A stretch of 64,000 nt of DNA, from contig NZ_LCTZ01000002.1 in the NCBI RefSeq assembly GCF_001413955.1, positions 2,032,501 to 2,096,500 on the forward strand, given 5' to 3'. Each line of letters starts with the position of its first letter. Within the stretch, counting starts at the first letter, position 1. Made by a program: the position numbers and the translations under genes. The stretch is from Flagellimonas eckloniae (GTDB lineage Bacteria; Bacteroidota; Bacteroidia; Flavobacteriales; Flavobacteriaceae). Below are positions 5,129 through 33,807 of the stretch, piece by piece. Below the pieces are notes generated by a model that saw nothing but the letters and a program-made list of their open reading frames with translations, made no database searches and was not told where the DNA came from.

Positions 5129-7099
5129 ATGATGAAAAAAATAACAACATTACTACTACTATTTCTTTTGGCTTCGTACCAAAGTCCAGCACAAATATCA
5201 ACCAAAAAAGAAAAATTATCTGATGATGAACGGATGGCTTGGTGGCGAGATGCCAAGTTTGGAATGTTCATTCATTGGGGAGCATACTCTATTATTGGAG
5301 GCGAACGTGGAACAAAAATTGCCGGAGGAGGTGCCGAATGGGCCATGGACAAGCTAGATTTTACTGTTGAGGATTACGAAAAATTTCCTGAAATGTTTAA
5401 TCCAGTACTATTTGATGCCGATGCGTGGGTCTCTATGGCCAAGGATGCCGGCATGAAGTATATTGTAATTACTTCTAAACACCATGAAGGTTTTGGATTG
5501 TGGGATTCCAAAGTGTCAGATTACGATATAATGGATAGAGCTCCTTTTAAACGTGATATTATAAAAGAATTATCGGAAGCTTGTAAAAAACAAGGCATCA
5601 AGTTTTGTTTTTACTATTCCATTGTAGATTGGCACCATCCGCAGGCGCAAGGAAACTTATATCCAAATTACAACATCGCTCAGCATGACGACCCATCGGT
5701 GGTGAATCCAGAATTCCCAGAGTACTTTAACAACTATATGAAACCTCAGGTAAAGGAGTTATTGACCAATTACGGGGACATTGGCGTAGTGTGGTTTGAT
5801 GGTGATTGGATTTCAGATTATACCACTGAAATGGGAAAAGAATTGTACAGTTTTATTCGTGATATTCAACCAAACACCATTATCAACAACAGAGTTGATA
5901 AAGGAAGAAACGGTATGGAAGGGATGGACAAAGAAGGCAATTTTGCAGGAGATTTTGGGACACCAGAGCAAGAAATTCCGGATACAGGAATTGATTCTGA
6001 TTGGGAAGCATGTATGACCATGAACGGGTCATGGGGATACAAACCAGCCGATAATAATTGGAAAAGCAGTGAAGATTTAATTCAGAAATTAGTGGACATC
6101 GTATCTAAAGGAGGAAACTTTTTATTGAACATAGGCCCTGATGGTTATGGCAGATTTCCAGCAGAGAGTATTCGCCGTTTAAAAGCCATGGGAGAGTGGA
6201 CCAAAAAAAATGGAGAAGCCATTTATGGGGTATCTGCAAGTCCTGTTGAAAAACCAAAATGGGGGCGTTATACTAAAAAAGGCAATGTTGTCTATGTACA
6301 TGTTTTTGATTGGCCAAAAAGTGGAATCCTTACCCTAAATAAAAAATTTAAGGTTAAAAAAGCATCATTGTTAACAGGTTCCAAGGCTATATTGAAAACA
6401 ACGGCAACATCTAGAGGGGCCATTATAGAGTTACCCATGTTGCCCCCAGACATCCCAGTTACAGTTATAAAAGTACAATTGGAACCAACAGATTGGGCTA
6501 ATCTTGGTAGATATGAAAAGGCCAATAAAAAGCTTATGAAATCCTCAAAAAATGTAAAAGCTGTTTTTATGGGAAATTCTATTACCCAAGGATGGGTAAA
6601 AGCTAATCCAGATTTTTTTACTCAAAATAATTTTATTGGTAGAGGCATTAGCGGTCAAACCACATCACAAATGGTAGCACGTTTTAAACAAGATGTCATT
6701 GACTTAAATCCCAATGTTGTAACTATTCTTGCAGGAACCAATGATATTGCAGGAAATAGAGGATTGATTACAGTACCAGAAATTGCGAAGAATATTTCCA
6801 CAATGGCAGAAATGGCAAAAAAACATAACATTAAGGTAGTTTTAGCTTCGGTTTTACCAGCGAGTAGTTATTCTTGGAGTCCTTCCATAGCGCCTGTTGA
6901 AAAAATTACTGAACTCAACGGGCTCATTAAAAACTATGCCCAGGCTAATAATTTGGTGTATTTAGATTACTATTCAAAAATGGTTAACGATAAAAAAGGA
7001 TTAAAAAAAGAATTAGGTAGAGATACTGTTCACCCTAATGCAGAAGGCTATAATGTAATGGGTCCTTTGGTCAAAGAAGCCATTGAAAAAGCTTTATAG
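5129..7099 (+). CDS. GH29 alpha-L-fucosidase fused to a C-terminal SGNH/GDSL esterase
   Basis: 656 residues with a signal peptide (cleavage near SPAQ). Residues ~35-355 form a GH29 barrel: WWRDAKFGMFIHWGAYS, SKHHEGFGLW and VVWFDGDW, where Asp224 matches the family nucleophile. A GH29-type beta domain spans ~365-450. Residues ~475-655 are a complete SGNH hydrolase: GNSIT (Ser484; GNS replaces GDS, common in Bacteroidota), Gly block, GTND (Asn538) and DTVHP (Asp632, His635). The product should therefore remove alpha-L-fucose and an acyl group from the same exported polypeptide. It is the fourth gene in the plus-strand series, 28 bases after the heparinase-like gene. ATG 5132 is an equally good start. 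The fucosidase call is firm at family level; the esterase substrate is unknown. Confidence 0.9.
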   Translation: MMKKITTLLLLFLLASYQSPAQISTKKEKLSDDERMAWWRDAKFGMFIHWGAYSIIGGERGTKIAGGGAEWAMDKLDFTVEDYEKFPEMFNPVLFDADAWVSMAKDAGMKYIVITSKHHEGFGLWDSKVSDYDIMDRAPFKRDIIKELSEACKKQGIKFCFYYSIVDWHHPQAQGNLYPNYNIAQHDDPSVVNPEFPEYFNNYMKPQVKELLTNYGDIGVVWFDGDWISDYTTEMGKELYSFIRDIQPNTIINNRVDKGRNGMEGMDKEGNFAGDFGTPEQEIPDTGIDSDWEACMTMNGSWGYKPADNNWKSSEDLIQKLVDIVSKGGNFLLNIGPDGYGRFPAESIRRLKAMGEWTKKNGEAIYGVSASPVEKPKWGRYTKKGNVVYVHVFDWPKSGILTLNKKFKVKKASLLTGSKAILKTTATSRGAIIELPMLPPDIPVTVIKVQLEPTDWANLGRYEKANKKLMKSSKNVKAVFMGNSITQGWVKANPDFFTQNNFIGRGISGQTTSQMVARFKQDVIDLNPNVVTILAGTNDIAGNRGLITVPEIAKNISTMAEMAKKHNIKVVLASVLPASSYSWSPSIAPVEKITELNGLIKNYAQANNLVYLDYYSKMVNDKKGLKKELGRDTVHPNAEGYNVMGPLVKEAIEKAL

Positions 7100-16260: not shown

Positions 16261-17967
16261 ATGAAAAAACCAATACATATTGTGAAAATTAAACTCAATC
16301 AAATAATAGTATTTGTTTTGTTCTCATTTTTATTGCAATTAGGGTGCGCTCCATCTGAAAAAAAAGAATCCCTTGATGCAGATGTTATCATCTATGGCGG
16401 AACTTCAGCAGCAATTGCTACTGCAGTACAATTAAAACGAATGGACAAATCCGTTTTAATAGTTTGTCCTGAAAAACATATTGGAGGTCTGTCAACAAGC
16501 GGACTTGGATTTACGGATTTGGGCAATAAAAGTGTTATTGGAGGGATTTCAAAAGAATTTTATCAACGTGTCTATGAGCATTATCAGGATAAAAGCGCCT
16601 GGAATTGGCAACCAAGGAATGAATATGGTAATGAAGGTCAAGGAACTACCGCTATTGATGATAGTTTAAAAACCATGTGGACTTTTGAACCACATGTTGC
16701 GGAAAAAATCTTTGAAAATATGGTCAAAGAGAATAAGATCAAGGTACTTCGCAACAAATGGCTCAATAGAGAATCAGGAGTTGAACTAAAAGATGGCAAA
16801 ATTATATCCATTACCATGCTGGATGGTGAAAAATACAAAGGAAAGGTCTTTATAGACGCCACTTACGAAGGTGATTTGATGGCAGCAGCCAAAGTAAATT
16901 ATCATGTGGGTCGTGAAGCGAATAGTGTTTACAATGAACAATGGAATGGGGTTCAAAAAGGCGAGTATCACCACAGTCACAATTTTCAACAACTAAATAT
17001 CAGTCCGTATGTAATTCCTGGAGATTCCACTAGCGGGGTACTTCCTAGAATCTCAACTGAAAATCCCGGTGAAAATGGAACTGGAGACCATCGTGTACAG
17101 GCCTATAATTATCGCTTATGTACCACCAATGCTGAAGGAAATATTGTTCCCTTTGAAAAACCGGAAAATTATGACCCTGCACAATATGAGCTGTTGAGAC
17201 GTATTTTTAGAGGGGGAAGAACATCCATGTTCGGTGGAGGAAAAATACCCAATAAAAAAAGGGATGTAAATAATGTAGGTCCCTTTAGTTCAGATAATAT
17301 TGGGATGAATTATGAATACCCAGAAGCATCCTATGAAAAAAGAAAAGAAATTCTAGATGAACATATAAGTTATCACAAAGGATTACTCTATTTCTGGGGA
17401 CATGATGAAAGTGTTCCAGAACGATTAAGGGTAAATATCAAAAAGTGGGGACTTGCCAAAGATGAATTTATAGATAACAATCATTGGCCTTATCAGATTT
17501 ACGTTCGCGAAGCTAGGCGTATGGTTGGTGATTTTGTAATGACCGAAAATGAAATCCTGGGAAAAAAGGAAGTAACTAAACCAATTGGCATGGGTTCATA
17601 TACCATGGACTCCCACAATGTACAACGTTATATTACTAAAGAGGGGTATGTTCAAAATGAAGGAGATTTGGGTGTTGACGCAGACGCCTCTTATCAAATC
17701 CATTTAGGCACCATACTACCAAAAAAGGAAGAATGTAAAAATCTAATTGTGCCCGTTGCTGTTTCCAGTTCCCATATAGCTTATGGTTCAATCCGTATGG
17801 AACCGGTTTTTATGATTCTTGGTCAAAGTGCCGGAACCTTGGCAGGAATGGCGCTTGAGGAAGATAAGAGTATGTATGATATTCCTTTTGAATCATTGAG
17901 TAGGCAACTCCGGGAAGATGGTCAAATTTTAGAATACGAGCCACAGCTAGAAAAAATTTCGGAATGA
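16261..17967 (+). CDS. FAD-dependent oxidoreductase (PF12831-like) lipoprotein
   Basis: 568 residues with lipoprotein signal (lipobox LQLGC, Cys29). The N-terminal dinucleotide fold reads ADVIIYGGTSAAIATAVQLKR, followed by HIGGLSTSGLGFTDLG, as in the FAD_oxidored group often found in Bacteroidota polysaccharide loci. Towards the C-terminus, GQSAGTLAGMAL is the second FAD-contacting segment. Sugar oxidation in the envelope is a reasonable guess; electron acceptor and substrate are unknown. It overlaps the next gene by 4 bases (ATGA), so translation of flavoprotein and SGNH hydrolase is coupled, suggesting consecutive action. Confidence 0.8.
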   Translation: MKKPIHIVKIKLNQIIVFVLFSFLLQLGCAPSEKKESLDADVIIYGGTSAAIATAVQLKRMDKSVLIVCPEKHIGGLSTSGLGFTDLGNKSVIGGISKEFYQRVYEHYQDKSAWNWQPRNEYGNEGQGTTAIDDSLKTMWTFEPHVAEKIFENMVKENKIKVLRNKWLNRESGVELKDGKIISITMLDGEKYKGKVFIDATYEGDLMAAAKVNYHVGREANSVYNEQWNGVQKGEYHHSHNFQQLNISPYVIPGDSTSGVLPRISTENPGENGTGDHRVQAYNYRLCTTNAEGNIVPFEKPENYDPAQYELLRRIFRGGRTSMFGGGKIPNKKRDVNNVGPFSSDNIGMNYEYPEASYEKRKEILDEHISYHKGLLYFWGHDESVPERLRVNIKKWGLAKDEFIDNNHWPYQIYVREARRMVGDFVMTENEILGKKEVTKPIGMGSYTMDSHNVQRYITKEGYVQNEGDLGVDADASYQIHLGTILPKKEECKNLIVPVAVSSSHIAYGSIRMEPVFMILGQSAGTLAGMALEEDKSMYDIPFESLSRQLREDGQILEYEPQLEKISE

Positions 17968-18692
17968 AACAGAAAACATGCATTCTTCTTTTTTTTGTAG
18001 GTTTCCTTGGCATTTCAAACATACATGCGCAAGTTGTAAATGCTGGTGTAGGTGGCAATAGCACAGTAAATCTATTGAAACGTTTAGATACTGATGTTTT
18101 GCAACAAGCACCAGATTTGGTCATTTTAATGGTGGGTACCAATGATATGTTGAATTCCAAAAAGATGATTCCCTATAAAACTTATGAGGATAATCTGCAG
18201 AAGATCGTTCAAAAAATAAGTGATAAAGGGGCTGCAATATTGTTGATATCACCACCACCAGTAGATTCGGTTTACCTCTTTGAAAGACATGATAGGAAAA
18301 TGTTTACTGAAGTGCCCAATGTAAAATTAGATACCGTGCGGCAAATAACGGTTAGGATTGCGAAAAAACACGAATTGAAACATTTAGATCTGTATAAGGT
18401 TTTCAGTGAAATGAATCTCCCCAAACATAATAAAGATTTGTTTTTCAGAAACTCAATGAACAGTAAAGTTCGGGATGGGGTACACCCTACAGTTTTAGGC
18501 TATCACTTTATTGGAGAATTGGTATTTCATTGTTTAAAGGAAAACAAATTATTGAAAGCAGGAAAGAAAATTGTGTGTTTTGGGGATTCCATAACCAACG
18601 GAGCTGGCACAAAAAATAAAGGCACCAGTGTTGGTGATAATTATCCCGCTGTACTTTCTAGATTGATACTTGAATATTTTGAAGATGAATAG
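17964..18692 (+). CDS. Secreted SGNH/GDSL hydrolase with circularly permuted catalytic blocks
   Basis: 242 residues with a signal peptide (cleavage around HAQ, residues 21-23). All four SGNH blocks are present but rotated: block II NAGVGGN (26-32), block III GTND (58-61, Asn60) and block V DGVHPTVLGY (Asp171, His174) come first, while block I FGDSITNG with Ser209 lies near the C-terminus. In ordinary SGNH hydrolases block I is at the N-terminus and is followed directly by block II. Joining the C-terminal GDSIT segment (to YFEDE) to VVNAGVGGNST would recreate the usual order, so this looks like a circular permutation that keeps a full Ser-Gly-Asn-His/Asp site. Probable role: periplasmic deacylation of locus oligosaccharides, translationally coupled to the FAD oxidoreductase. 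The permutation is directly visible; activity is inferred. Confidence 0.85.
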   Translation: MKQKTCILLFFVGFLGISNIHAQVVNAGVGGNSTVNLLKRLDTDVLQQAPDLVILMVGTNDMLNSKKMIPYKTYEDNLQKIVQKISDKGAAILLISPPPVDSVYLFERHDRKMFTEVPNVKLDTVRQITVRIAKKHELKHLDLYKVFSEMNLPKHNKDLFFRNSMNSKVRDGVHPTVLGYHFIGELVFHCLKENKLLKAGKKIVCFGDSITNGAGTKNKGTSVGDNYPAVLSRLILEYFEDE

Positions 18693-27713: not shown

Positions 27714-28472
27714 ATGAAAACACGTTTAACACAAGTTTATATTTCCGTATTTCCATTATTATTTTTTGGGATGATGTTGTTTCCTTCATGTGCTCAACAC
27801 AAGAATGTCATCCAAATAAACGATACGGTTAAGGTAAGTTCAAAATTGATTCATCAGGATGATTTTGGCAGTGATTTGGATAATTGGGTCATTGAACAAA
27901 GGGAAGGTGGAAAAGCAGAAATCAAAAATGAAAAATTGGAGATTGATGATGCCTCCGGTTGCACAATGTGGTTCAACAAAAAATTAAACGGGGCCATAAT
28001 GATTGAATATGACACCTTCATCATAAAAAATGGTGGCCCAAATGACCGTGTTTCCGATATGAACTGCTTCTGGATGGCAAAAGATATGGAGCATCCAGAG
28101 AATTTATTCGAAAAATCCTTGGAACGAGGTGGTAAATTCTCAAATTACGATAGCCTTAGGCTCTACTACATGGGAGTTGGTGGACATAATAATTCAAAAA
28201 CCCGCTTTAGAAGATATGTAGGTAACGGAGAAAGGCCATTGCTTCCAGAACATGATTTTACAAACCCTAATTTTTTATTGTCACCCAATCAAGTTTATCA
28301 TATTAAAATAATTGCCTTCAACAATATTATTCAATATTATAGAAACGGTATTTTAATGGTTGATTATGATGATGAGAGTCCATATACCTCTGGTTATTTT
28401 GGTTTTAGAACTGTAAACAATCACATGACTATAGATAATTTCAAAGTATCTGAATTGATTACCAAGAATTAA
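27714..28472 (+). CDS. DUF6250-like jelly-roll lipoprotein
   Basis: About 252 residues from ATG 27,714, chosen because it gives a clean lipoprotein signal (FPSCAQ); an upstream in-frame ATG at 27,681 adds 11 unlikely residues. The mature part is an all-beta, concanavalin-like fold: DDFGSDLDNWVIEQREGG, GCTMWFNKKLNGAIMIEYDT, RRYVGNGERPLLPEHDF and GYFGFRTVNNHMTIDNFKV. I recognise the DUF6250 pattern, a family repeatedly found beside uronate-degrading enzymes; its catalytic role is unknown to me. It lies 28 bases before kduI, so a lyase or hydrolase releasing unsaturated or terminal uronate is conceivable, but this is inference. Confidence 0.6.
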   Translation: MKTRLTQVYISVFPLLFFGMMLFPSCAQHKNVIQINDTVKVSSKLIHQDDFGSDLDNWVIEQREGGKAEIKNEKLEIDDASGCTMWFNKKLNGAIMIEYDTFIIKNGGPNDRVSDMNCFWMAKDMEHPENLFEKSLERGGKFSNYDSLRLYYMGVGGHNNSKTRFRRYVGNGERPLLPEHDFTNPNFLLSPNQVYHIKIIAFNNIIQYYRNGILMVDYDDESPYTSGYFGFRTVNNHMTIDNFKVSELITKN

Positions 28473-32913: not shown

Positions 32914-33807
32914 ATGAAAACCAAATACATTTTTTCTGCTTTGGGAGTAATCTTTTTAGCATGTACAGCACTTAAAACTGAATCCGTTAACAAATCAATA
33001 GAAACCGATTGGGAATTATTACTGGATAAGGATTTGAGCAAATGGGACATATTTATGGGAGTTCCGCATTATTCTGTAGAATTGGAAGGATATGAGAAAG
33101 GAAATGGCATGAAAGGTACGCCCATTGGATTGGGTAAAGACCCCTTAAATGTATTTTCCGTAAAAGAAATGGACGGGGAACAGGTACTCCATATCACAGG
33201 TCAAATATATGCCGGATTGAGCACTAAATCAGAGTTTGAAAATTATCATTTTAGCACTGAATTCAAATGGGGCACCAAACAATGGGAGCCCCGATTGGAA
33301 GACAAAAGGGATAGTGGCATTTTGTACCACTGCCAAGAACCCCATGGTCAGTTTTGGAACGTATGGATGAAAGCTCCAGAAATGCAGGTTCAAGAGAGTG
33401 ATTGTGGTGATTTTCATCCTTTGGCAGGTGTAGCTATGGACATCAGAGCTTCAAAGGTTGATGAAAATGGAAAAGAATTGTGGGCCTATGACCCAAATGG
33501 CGAAATCAAGACCTTTAAAAGTGGCCCAGGCGGTAGATGTAAAAAAAGCATCAATTACGAAAAACCAAATGATGAATGGAACTTATTGGAACTCATTTGT
33601 ATTGGAGACAAAGCCTACCATATTGTAAATGGTAAAGTAGTTATGGTCTTGGAAAATTCAGTTCAATTTGATGAAGAAGGTACTCCAACTTCCCTGACAA
33701 AGGGAAAAATACAAATTCAGTCTGAAGCTGCAGAGGTGTTTTATAAAAACTTAAAAATAGCCAAGGTGGATAAACTTCCTAAGGCCTTTGCAAAGCAACT
33801 GAGATAA
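32914..33807 (+). CDS. DUF1080 (3-keto-disaccharide hydrolase-like) lipoprotein
   Basis: 297 residues, lipoprotein signal (Cys17). A single jelly-roll domain with DUF1080 hallmarks: DWELLLDKDLSKWDIF, YHFSTEFKWGTKQW, RDSGILYHCQ, EMQVQESDCGDF, GKIQIQSEAAEVFYKNLKI. Some DUF1080 proteins hydrolyse 3-keto-glycosides formed by sugar 3-dehydrogenases; the exported FAD oxidoreductase of this locus (16,261) could be a partner, although it is not a typical GMC-type sugar dehydrogenase. It is the last gene of the plus-strand series, followed by a strong hairpin terminator. Confidence 0.85.
   Translation: MKTKYIFSALGVIFLACTALKTESVNKSIETDWELLLDKDLSKWDIFMGVPHYSVELEGYEKGNGMKGTPIGLGKDPLNVFSVKEMDGEQVLHITGQIYAGLSTKSEFENYHFSTEFKWGTKQWEPRLEDKRDSGILYHCQEPHGQFWNVWMKAPEMQVQESDCGDFHPLAGVAMDIRASKVDENGKELWAYDPNGEIKTFKSGPGGRCKKSINYEKPNDEWNLLELICIGDKAYHIVNGKVVMVLENSVQFDEEGTPTSLTKGKIQIQSEAAEVFYKNLKIAKVDKLPKAFAKQLR

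Follow-up and report, generated by a model that had tools for sequence, protein, structure and literature searches.

Domain organization of an SGNH hydrolase gene in Flagellimonas eckloniae

We analyzed a 64,000-nucleotide stretch of the Flagellimonas eckloniae genome (NZ_LCTZ01000002.1, positions 2,032,501 to 2,096,500; called the window here, and numbered from its first nucleotide), in which the gene for a flavin adenine dinucleotide (FAD)-dependent oxidoreductase is followed by a gene for a protein of the SGNH (GDSL-type) hydrolase superfamily whose catalytic blocks stand in a circularly permuted order (Table 1). An earlier reading made from the letters alone (here called the sequence-only reading) had described the second gene, and its coordinates, its 242-residue open reading frame (ORF), and the motifs NAGVGGN, GTND, DGVHPT (residues 171-176), and C-terminal FGDSIT with Ser209 were all found to be present. 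The protein has the sequence features of the superfamily, namely the GDS serine, the block II glycine, the block III asparagine, and Asp-x-x-His, but it departs from the canonical linear order S-G-N-H of PF13472 and PF00657 by carrying block I near its end, the chain running for only 33 residues past Ser209. Consistent with this, its match to PF13472 (Lipase_GDSL_2; 83.9 bits) pairs residues 22-181 with profile positions 33-177 only, which indicates that block I is missing from its usual place.

Table 1. Features of the permuted hydrolase gene and its upstream neighbor (window coordinates)
Feature	Coordinates	Strand	Basis
Circularly permuted SGNH hydrolase, 242 aa, blocks II-III-V-I	17964..18692	+	Sequence, Pfam, relatives, model, rotation scan, alignment
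Leader (signal) peptide, residues 1-22	17964..18029	+	Sequence (cleavage after IHA read by eye); low pLDDT at residues 1-20; hydrophobic stretch before block II in homologs
Block II NAGVGGN, residues 26-32, directly after the leader	18039..18059	+	N26 and G28 in 255/255 rows; G31 in 253/255
Block III GTND, residues 58-61, including N60	18135..18146	+	N60 in 255/255 rows
Block V DGVH, residues 171-174, triad Asp171 and His174	18474..18485	+	Each in 255/255 rows
Block I FGDSIT, residues 206-211, displaced to the C-terminus	18579..18596	+	S209 and T211 in 255/255 rows
Codon of the nucleophile Ser209	18588-18590	+	Within block I
C-terminal helix, residues 227-241	18642..18686	+	DSSP of the model; Y227, P228, and L231 in 252-254/255 rows
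PF12831 FAD-dependent oxidoreductase, 568 aa, upstream neighbor	16261..17967	+	Pfam, 348.5 bits

Rotation restores a continuous match to linear relatives

As the sequence-only reading had suggested, we repeated the database searches with a rotated construct, in which residues 195-242 were placed before residues 23-194. The PF13472 score rose to 96.7 bits and the match now extended over profile positions 1-177, and that to PF00657 went from 76.7 bits (profile positions 35-207) to 82.6 bits (positions 1-207). A control rotation at residue 100 gave 90.1 bits, with the best stretch spanning profile positions 1-111 only. The best match in the PDB, 1yzf, was hit at 54.5 bits in two separate stretches in the natural order, the C-terminal GDSIT segment giving a tiny separate match (1.8 bits) to the N-terminus of 1yzf, and at 60.1 bits in a single stretch after rotation. 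In its natural order the protein matched 28 PDB sequences at E ≤ 0.001, and rotation raised the score for 27 of them. Finally, when the mature chain was rotated every four residues (plus at residue 195) and scored against a profile of linear relatives, the maximum was found at residues 195-199 (138.2 bits, positions 2-188 of 190), compared to 115.0 bits in the best stretch of the natural order.

The permuted order is uniform among the relatives examined

A protein search returned 780 matches at E ≤ 0.001, and all of the 120 listed were rotated alike; a second search, run with a profile built from rotated relatives, returned 2201 matches at E ≤ 1e-10, the 120 listed including 56 new ones. All 177 proteins gathered in this way, the query and its own record included, are permuted, with the GDS after the DxxH motif. 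Two of them do not fit the strict form of the block I motif; inspected by eye, they show CVGDSIT and RFGDSIT past block V. In a scan of the genomes of 84,980 species, 80 loci were kept from 278 confirmed relatives among the matches listed, and every one of the 80 has the permuted order, so that the block order given in the sequence-only reading is real and shared. The loci include members of Flavobacteriaceae, Chitinophagaceae, Sphingobacteriaceae, Cytophagaceae, Prolixibacteraceae, and Tannerellaceae, as well as metagenome-assembled genomes of Verrucomicrobiota (L043, L047), Lentisphaerota (L050, L068), and Fibrobacterota (L045). An assembly error was rejected, since independent genomes carry the same rotated gene. 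The relatives bear generic names in their source records (GDSL-type esterase, SGNH/GDSL hydrolase, or hypothetical), none of which refers to the rotation.

At closer range, the gene was found in at least 2 of 60 genomes of the genus, at least 3 of 199 of the family (one match having an internal stop codon), and at least 3 of 296 of the phylum, with the genome studied here always counted; the numbers are minima, as the family and phylum scans scored a limited set of first-look candidates. Such a patchy spread would fit an accessory gene that travels with polysaccharide-degrading gene clusters.

For conservation, we aligned the 177 proteins with 78 of the loci (255 rows), leaving out the Sphingobacterium humi locus L052, whose ORF is split over two frames, and L015, whose ORF is without the N-terminus. 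N26, G28, G58, N60, R108, N166, D171, H174, G207, S209, and T211 are present in 255/255 rows, and decay of the domain was rejected on the strength of S209, N60, D171, and H174. The claim that all catalytic residues are conserved thus stood for these four and nearly so for G31 (253/255), which by its place in block II is probably the oxyanion-hole glycine, but not for Gly30, as position 30 is variable (G in 170 rows, S in 34, A in 30, and others).

Several further observations were made on these sequences. R108 (18285-18287) and N166 (18459-18461), which are invariant, and C205 (18576-18578), present in 254/255 rows, lie outside the SGNH set and perhaps have a family-specific substrate or structural role. 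The S. humi copy (L052, 7878-8657) is a broken or misread gene. In L013 (6597-8630), L018, L019, L020, L022, and L023, the permuted domain forms the C-terminal part of open frames of 668-688 residues, and the N-terminal part of that in L013 gave a below-cut-off Pfam match to a beta-helix.

Predicted structure and cut point

The AlphaFold2 model (41 sequences) had a mean predicted local distance difference test score (pLDDT) of 93.4 and a predicted template modeling score (pTM) of 0.87, and presented the three-layer alpha/beta/alpha SGNH fold, matched by Foldseek and VIA-align mostly over residues 18-201. Judged by their titles, the neighbors listed by the two programs were SGNH/GDSL proteins, apart from designed scaffolds that in turn align with such proteins. 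Since these aligners follow the sequence order, it is the pTM and homology, and not their matches, that place block I. The N-terminal strand (residues 23-28), the block I strand (residues 202-207), and the last helix (residues 227-241) were confidently modeled, and the C-terminal tail had a pLDDT of 94-97.

The last helix corresponds to the one found downstream of block I in linear SGNH enzymes, and the domain has been opened behind it. With the block II strand at the mature N-terminus and this helix at the C-terminus, the chain is open at the loop that in linear enzymes leads from the first helix to the second strand, in line with the join at the block I-II border that had been read from the sequence. 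A short linker (residues 194-201) joins the old termini after the last helix of the old order, so that the former C-terminus runs on into the former first strand. Once the protein has been exported, the block I strand at its C-terminus would take up the first-strand position and so bring Ser209 to Asp171 and His174. By the conserved SGNH geometry, the oxyanion hole would be formed by the Ser209 and Gly31 nitrogens and the Asn60 side chain.

Residue conservation, the peak of the rotation scan, the full-length Pfam and PDB matches after rotation, and the confident fold together support a domain that is circularly permuted and intact, neither decayed nor chimeric, as had been proposed.

Origin of the permutation

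A tree was built from 40 linear domains and 46 rotated permuted domains, the latter drawn from 75 rotated locus sequences (L015, L024, and L052, with block II unrecognized, as well as L017 and L026, were absent from these). The permuted domains fell on one side of a branch with a support of 91/82, not enough for the star that the program used awards at 95 and 80, which favors a single origin of the permuted clade without proving it. The closest full-length linear relatives, ranked by rotated-profile score in 247 genomes of the phylum, mostly group with the acetyl xylan esterase 7ddy. The tree leaves the sister group ambiguous, as a single long-branched sequence (L133) stands beside the permuted clade. 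We also searched by motif for a second, N-terminal block I, anchoring on N26-x-G28-xxx-N32, and found it in 0/255 rows, although up to five may have been missed because they lack N32. Tandem duplication with later trimming of both ends is therefore no more than a possible route.

Linkage to a PF12831 flavoprotein and gene surroundings

The oxidoreductase and hydrolase genes share the ATGA overlap that had been noticed earlier (stop TGA at 17965-17967, start ATG at 17964), and their adjacency proved to be broader than this one locus. The flavoprotein is the sole full-length PF12831 match in the genome, seven others ending by profile position 145 of 416. Two clusters of FAD proteins are present at 54 of the 80 loci (cluster 3 in 45 and cluster 8 in 9), and the four members tested by Pfam were all PF12831. 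Using a profile of these clustered flavoproteins, we counted FAD genes on the same strand directly beside the permuted gene in 43 of 78 loci (19 upstream, 23 downstream, and 1 on both sides). L017 and L026, which the motif search had missed, stood outside this count; both are permuted and neither is in cluster 3 or 8. That both gene orders occur suggests the pair has been kept together through rearrangement. In another 17 loci the FAD hit lay elsewhere in the locus, some hits being weak (123-148 bits), and in five of these (L021, L030, L033, L035, L042) a single gene separates the two. For linear SGNH ORFs near the loci, FAD adjacency was seen in 0/4, too few to weigh; a fifth supposed linear ORF (L082) was rejected, as it is actually a permuted protein aligned from its leader.

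The flavoenzyme model had a pLDDT of 80.7 and resembles many FAD proteins with no clear best, and no PDB sequence relative was found at E ≤ 0.001. The flavoenzyme relative in L085 bears a Golvesin_C domain.

By Pfam, the window also encodes glycoside hydrolase family (GH) 97, GH28, and GH3 proteins, a GH141-type protein, a sulfatase, three heparinase II/III-like proteins, and a chondroitinase B-type lyase. A GH29 alpha-L-fucosidase domain at 5129-7099 is fused to a C-terminal SGNH domain, which belongs to the same superfamily and cluster as the permuted enzyme but is linear, with the normal block order and a match to profile positions 1-177. SusC-like and SusD-like clusters, recognized from sequence and not by Pfam, are present in 50 and 47 of the 80 loci, respectively. 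A PF06439 3-keto-disaccharide hydrolase is encoded at 32914-33807, and a mainly DUF6250 protein with a below-cut-off PF06439 match at 27714-28472; as the FAD oxidoreductase is encoded in the same window, an oxidative glycosidase route is possible.

Proposed function and alternatives

The product of the gene is probably an SGNH (GDSL-type) esterase with a circularly permuted domain that is exported and catalytically competent, and it is likely to deacylate the glycan of the locus. Its leader, its place among catabolic genes, and its canonical GDSIT, GTND, and DxxH motifs make it most likely a carbohydrate O-acyl esterase, most simply an acetyl esterase, of polysaccharide-degrading loci. Its target would be the glycan that the neighboring genes serve to break down, from which it would strip O-acetyl groups or comparable small acyl groups, and it would act in concert with the product of the overlapping flavin oxidoreductase gene, the ATGA overlap and the linkage pointing to co-transcription and cooperation of the two. 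The four catalytic blocks and the fold are those of the linear Enterococcus faecalis lipase/acylhydrolase 1yzf, AlAXEase acetyl xylan esterase 7ddy, and Geobacillus Axe2 3w7v, with about 24-31% identity over the aligned part; unlike 1yzf and 7ddy, which start with block I in the alignments, the permuted enzyme has it last.

Several points weigh against this reading. One PDB match, 3p94, loses slightly on rotation (from 31.5 to 30.5 bits). The rows of the alignment are not independent, since the 177 proteins and the 78 loci share members. Most structural alignments cover about residues 18-201 of the model and a few reach residues 241-242, and a fold match is no proof of a substrate. No FAD-profile hit was found in 18 of 78 loci, some of which are short contigs. 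In addition, the invariant R108 and N166, and the nearly invariant C205 and H109, could point to another acyl group or to a transferase.

In one improbable alternative, the protein is an acyltransferase rather than a hydrolase. As far as the accessible parts of the literature go, permuted SGNH proteins are represented by AlgX/AlgJ, WssI, and PatB1 (DHHW), with the order H-S-G-N (PMC9487903, PMC4148444, PMC5697884, PMC3779223, PMC10302187, PMC2848206, PMC5408684), and are described there as O-acetyltransferases or with transferase roles (PMC9487903, PMC4148444, PMC5697884, PMC10302187). Like the present family, AlgX/AlgJ/WssI and PatB1 have a permuted SGNH core that acts on polysaccharides (PMC9487903, PMC4148444, PMC10302187). 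However, in the same sources they have the order H-S-G-N (or H-S-G-Y/D), with the cut between blocks III and V, and altered motifs such as GTSYS and DxH in AlgJ (PMC9487903, PMC4148444) or KDS and TDHHW in PatB1, whereas the cut here is between blocks I and II, giving G-N-H-S, and neither the AlgX/AlgJ and DHHW block order nor the DxH and GTSYS motifs were found. The family retains the canonical motifs, including FGDSIT and DGVH, its gene sits among catabolic genes, and acetyl xylan esterases and acylhydrolases are among the closest solved matches.

Also improbable is a domain-swapped dimer or filament, in which block I would complete the active site of a neighboring subunit, as the terminal position of its strand would permit; the single-chain model is confident over the whole mature chain, and the block V helix is separated from the block I strand by just 8 residues, as would be expected of a closed domain. 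That the GDSIT tail lies outside the active site, as an unrelated or decoy addition to a truncated SGNH domain or through an assembly or annotation error, is very unlikely: without rotation, the alignment with linear SGNH profiles and the best PDB chains is confined to residues about 16-192, but the full retention of G207, S209, and T211, the relatives in Bacteroidota and three further phyla (as metagenome-assembled genomes), the continuous full-length match on rotation, and the tail's pLDDT all speak against this chimera or error, which the sequence-only reading had named as what would overturn it.

A wider picture, less likely than not, is that the permuted esterase belongs to a previously undescribed G-N-H-S class that would have had a single origin, would have spread by gene transfer through Bacteroidota, Verrucomicrobiota/Lentisphaerota, and Fibrobacterota, and would form a dedicated two-enzyme module with an exported PF12831 flavoenzyme, de-esterification freeing a sugar hydroxyl for oxidation by the latter. 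No G-N-H-S permuted SGNH, GDSL, or carbohydrate esterase was found in the accessible parts of the literature searched, mostly outside subscription journals, so an earlier report is possible.

Here, then, a very common hydrolase fold has been permuted in nature, uniformly across the relatives examined and with its full canonical catalytic set, which offers many natural sequences for testing the influence of chain order on folding, export, and catalysis. The recurrent linkage to a flavoprotein, on either side of the gene, points to a testable step in glycan breakdown.
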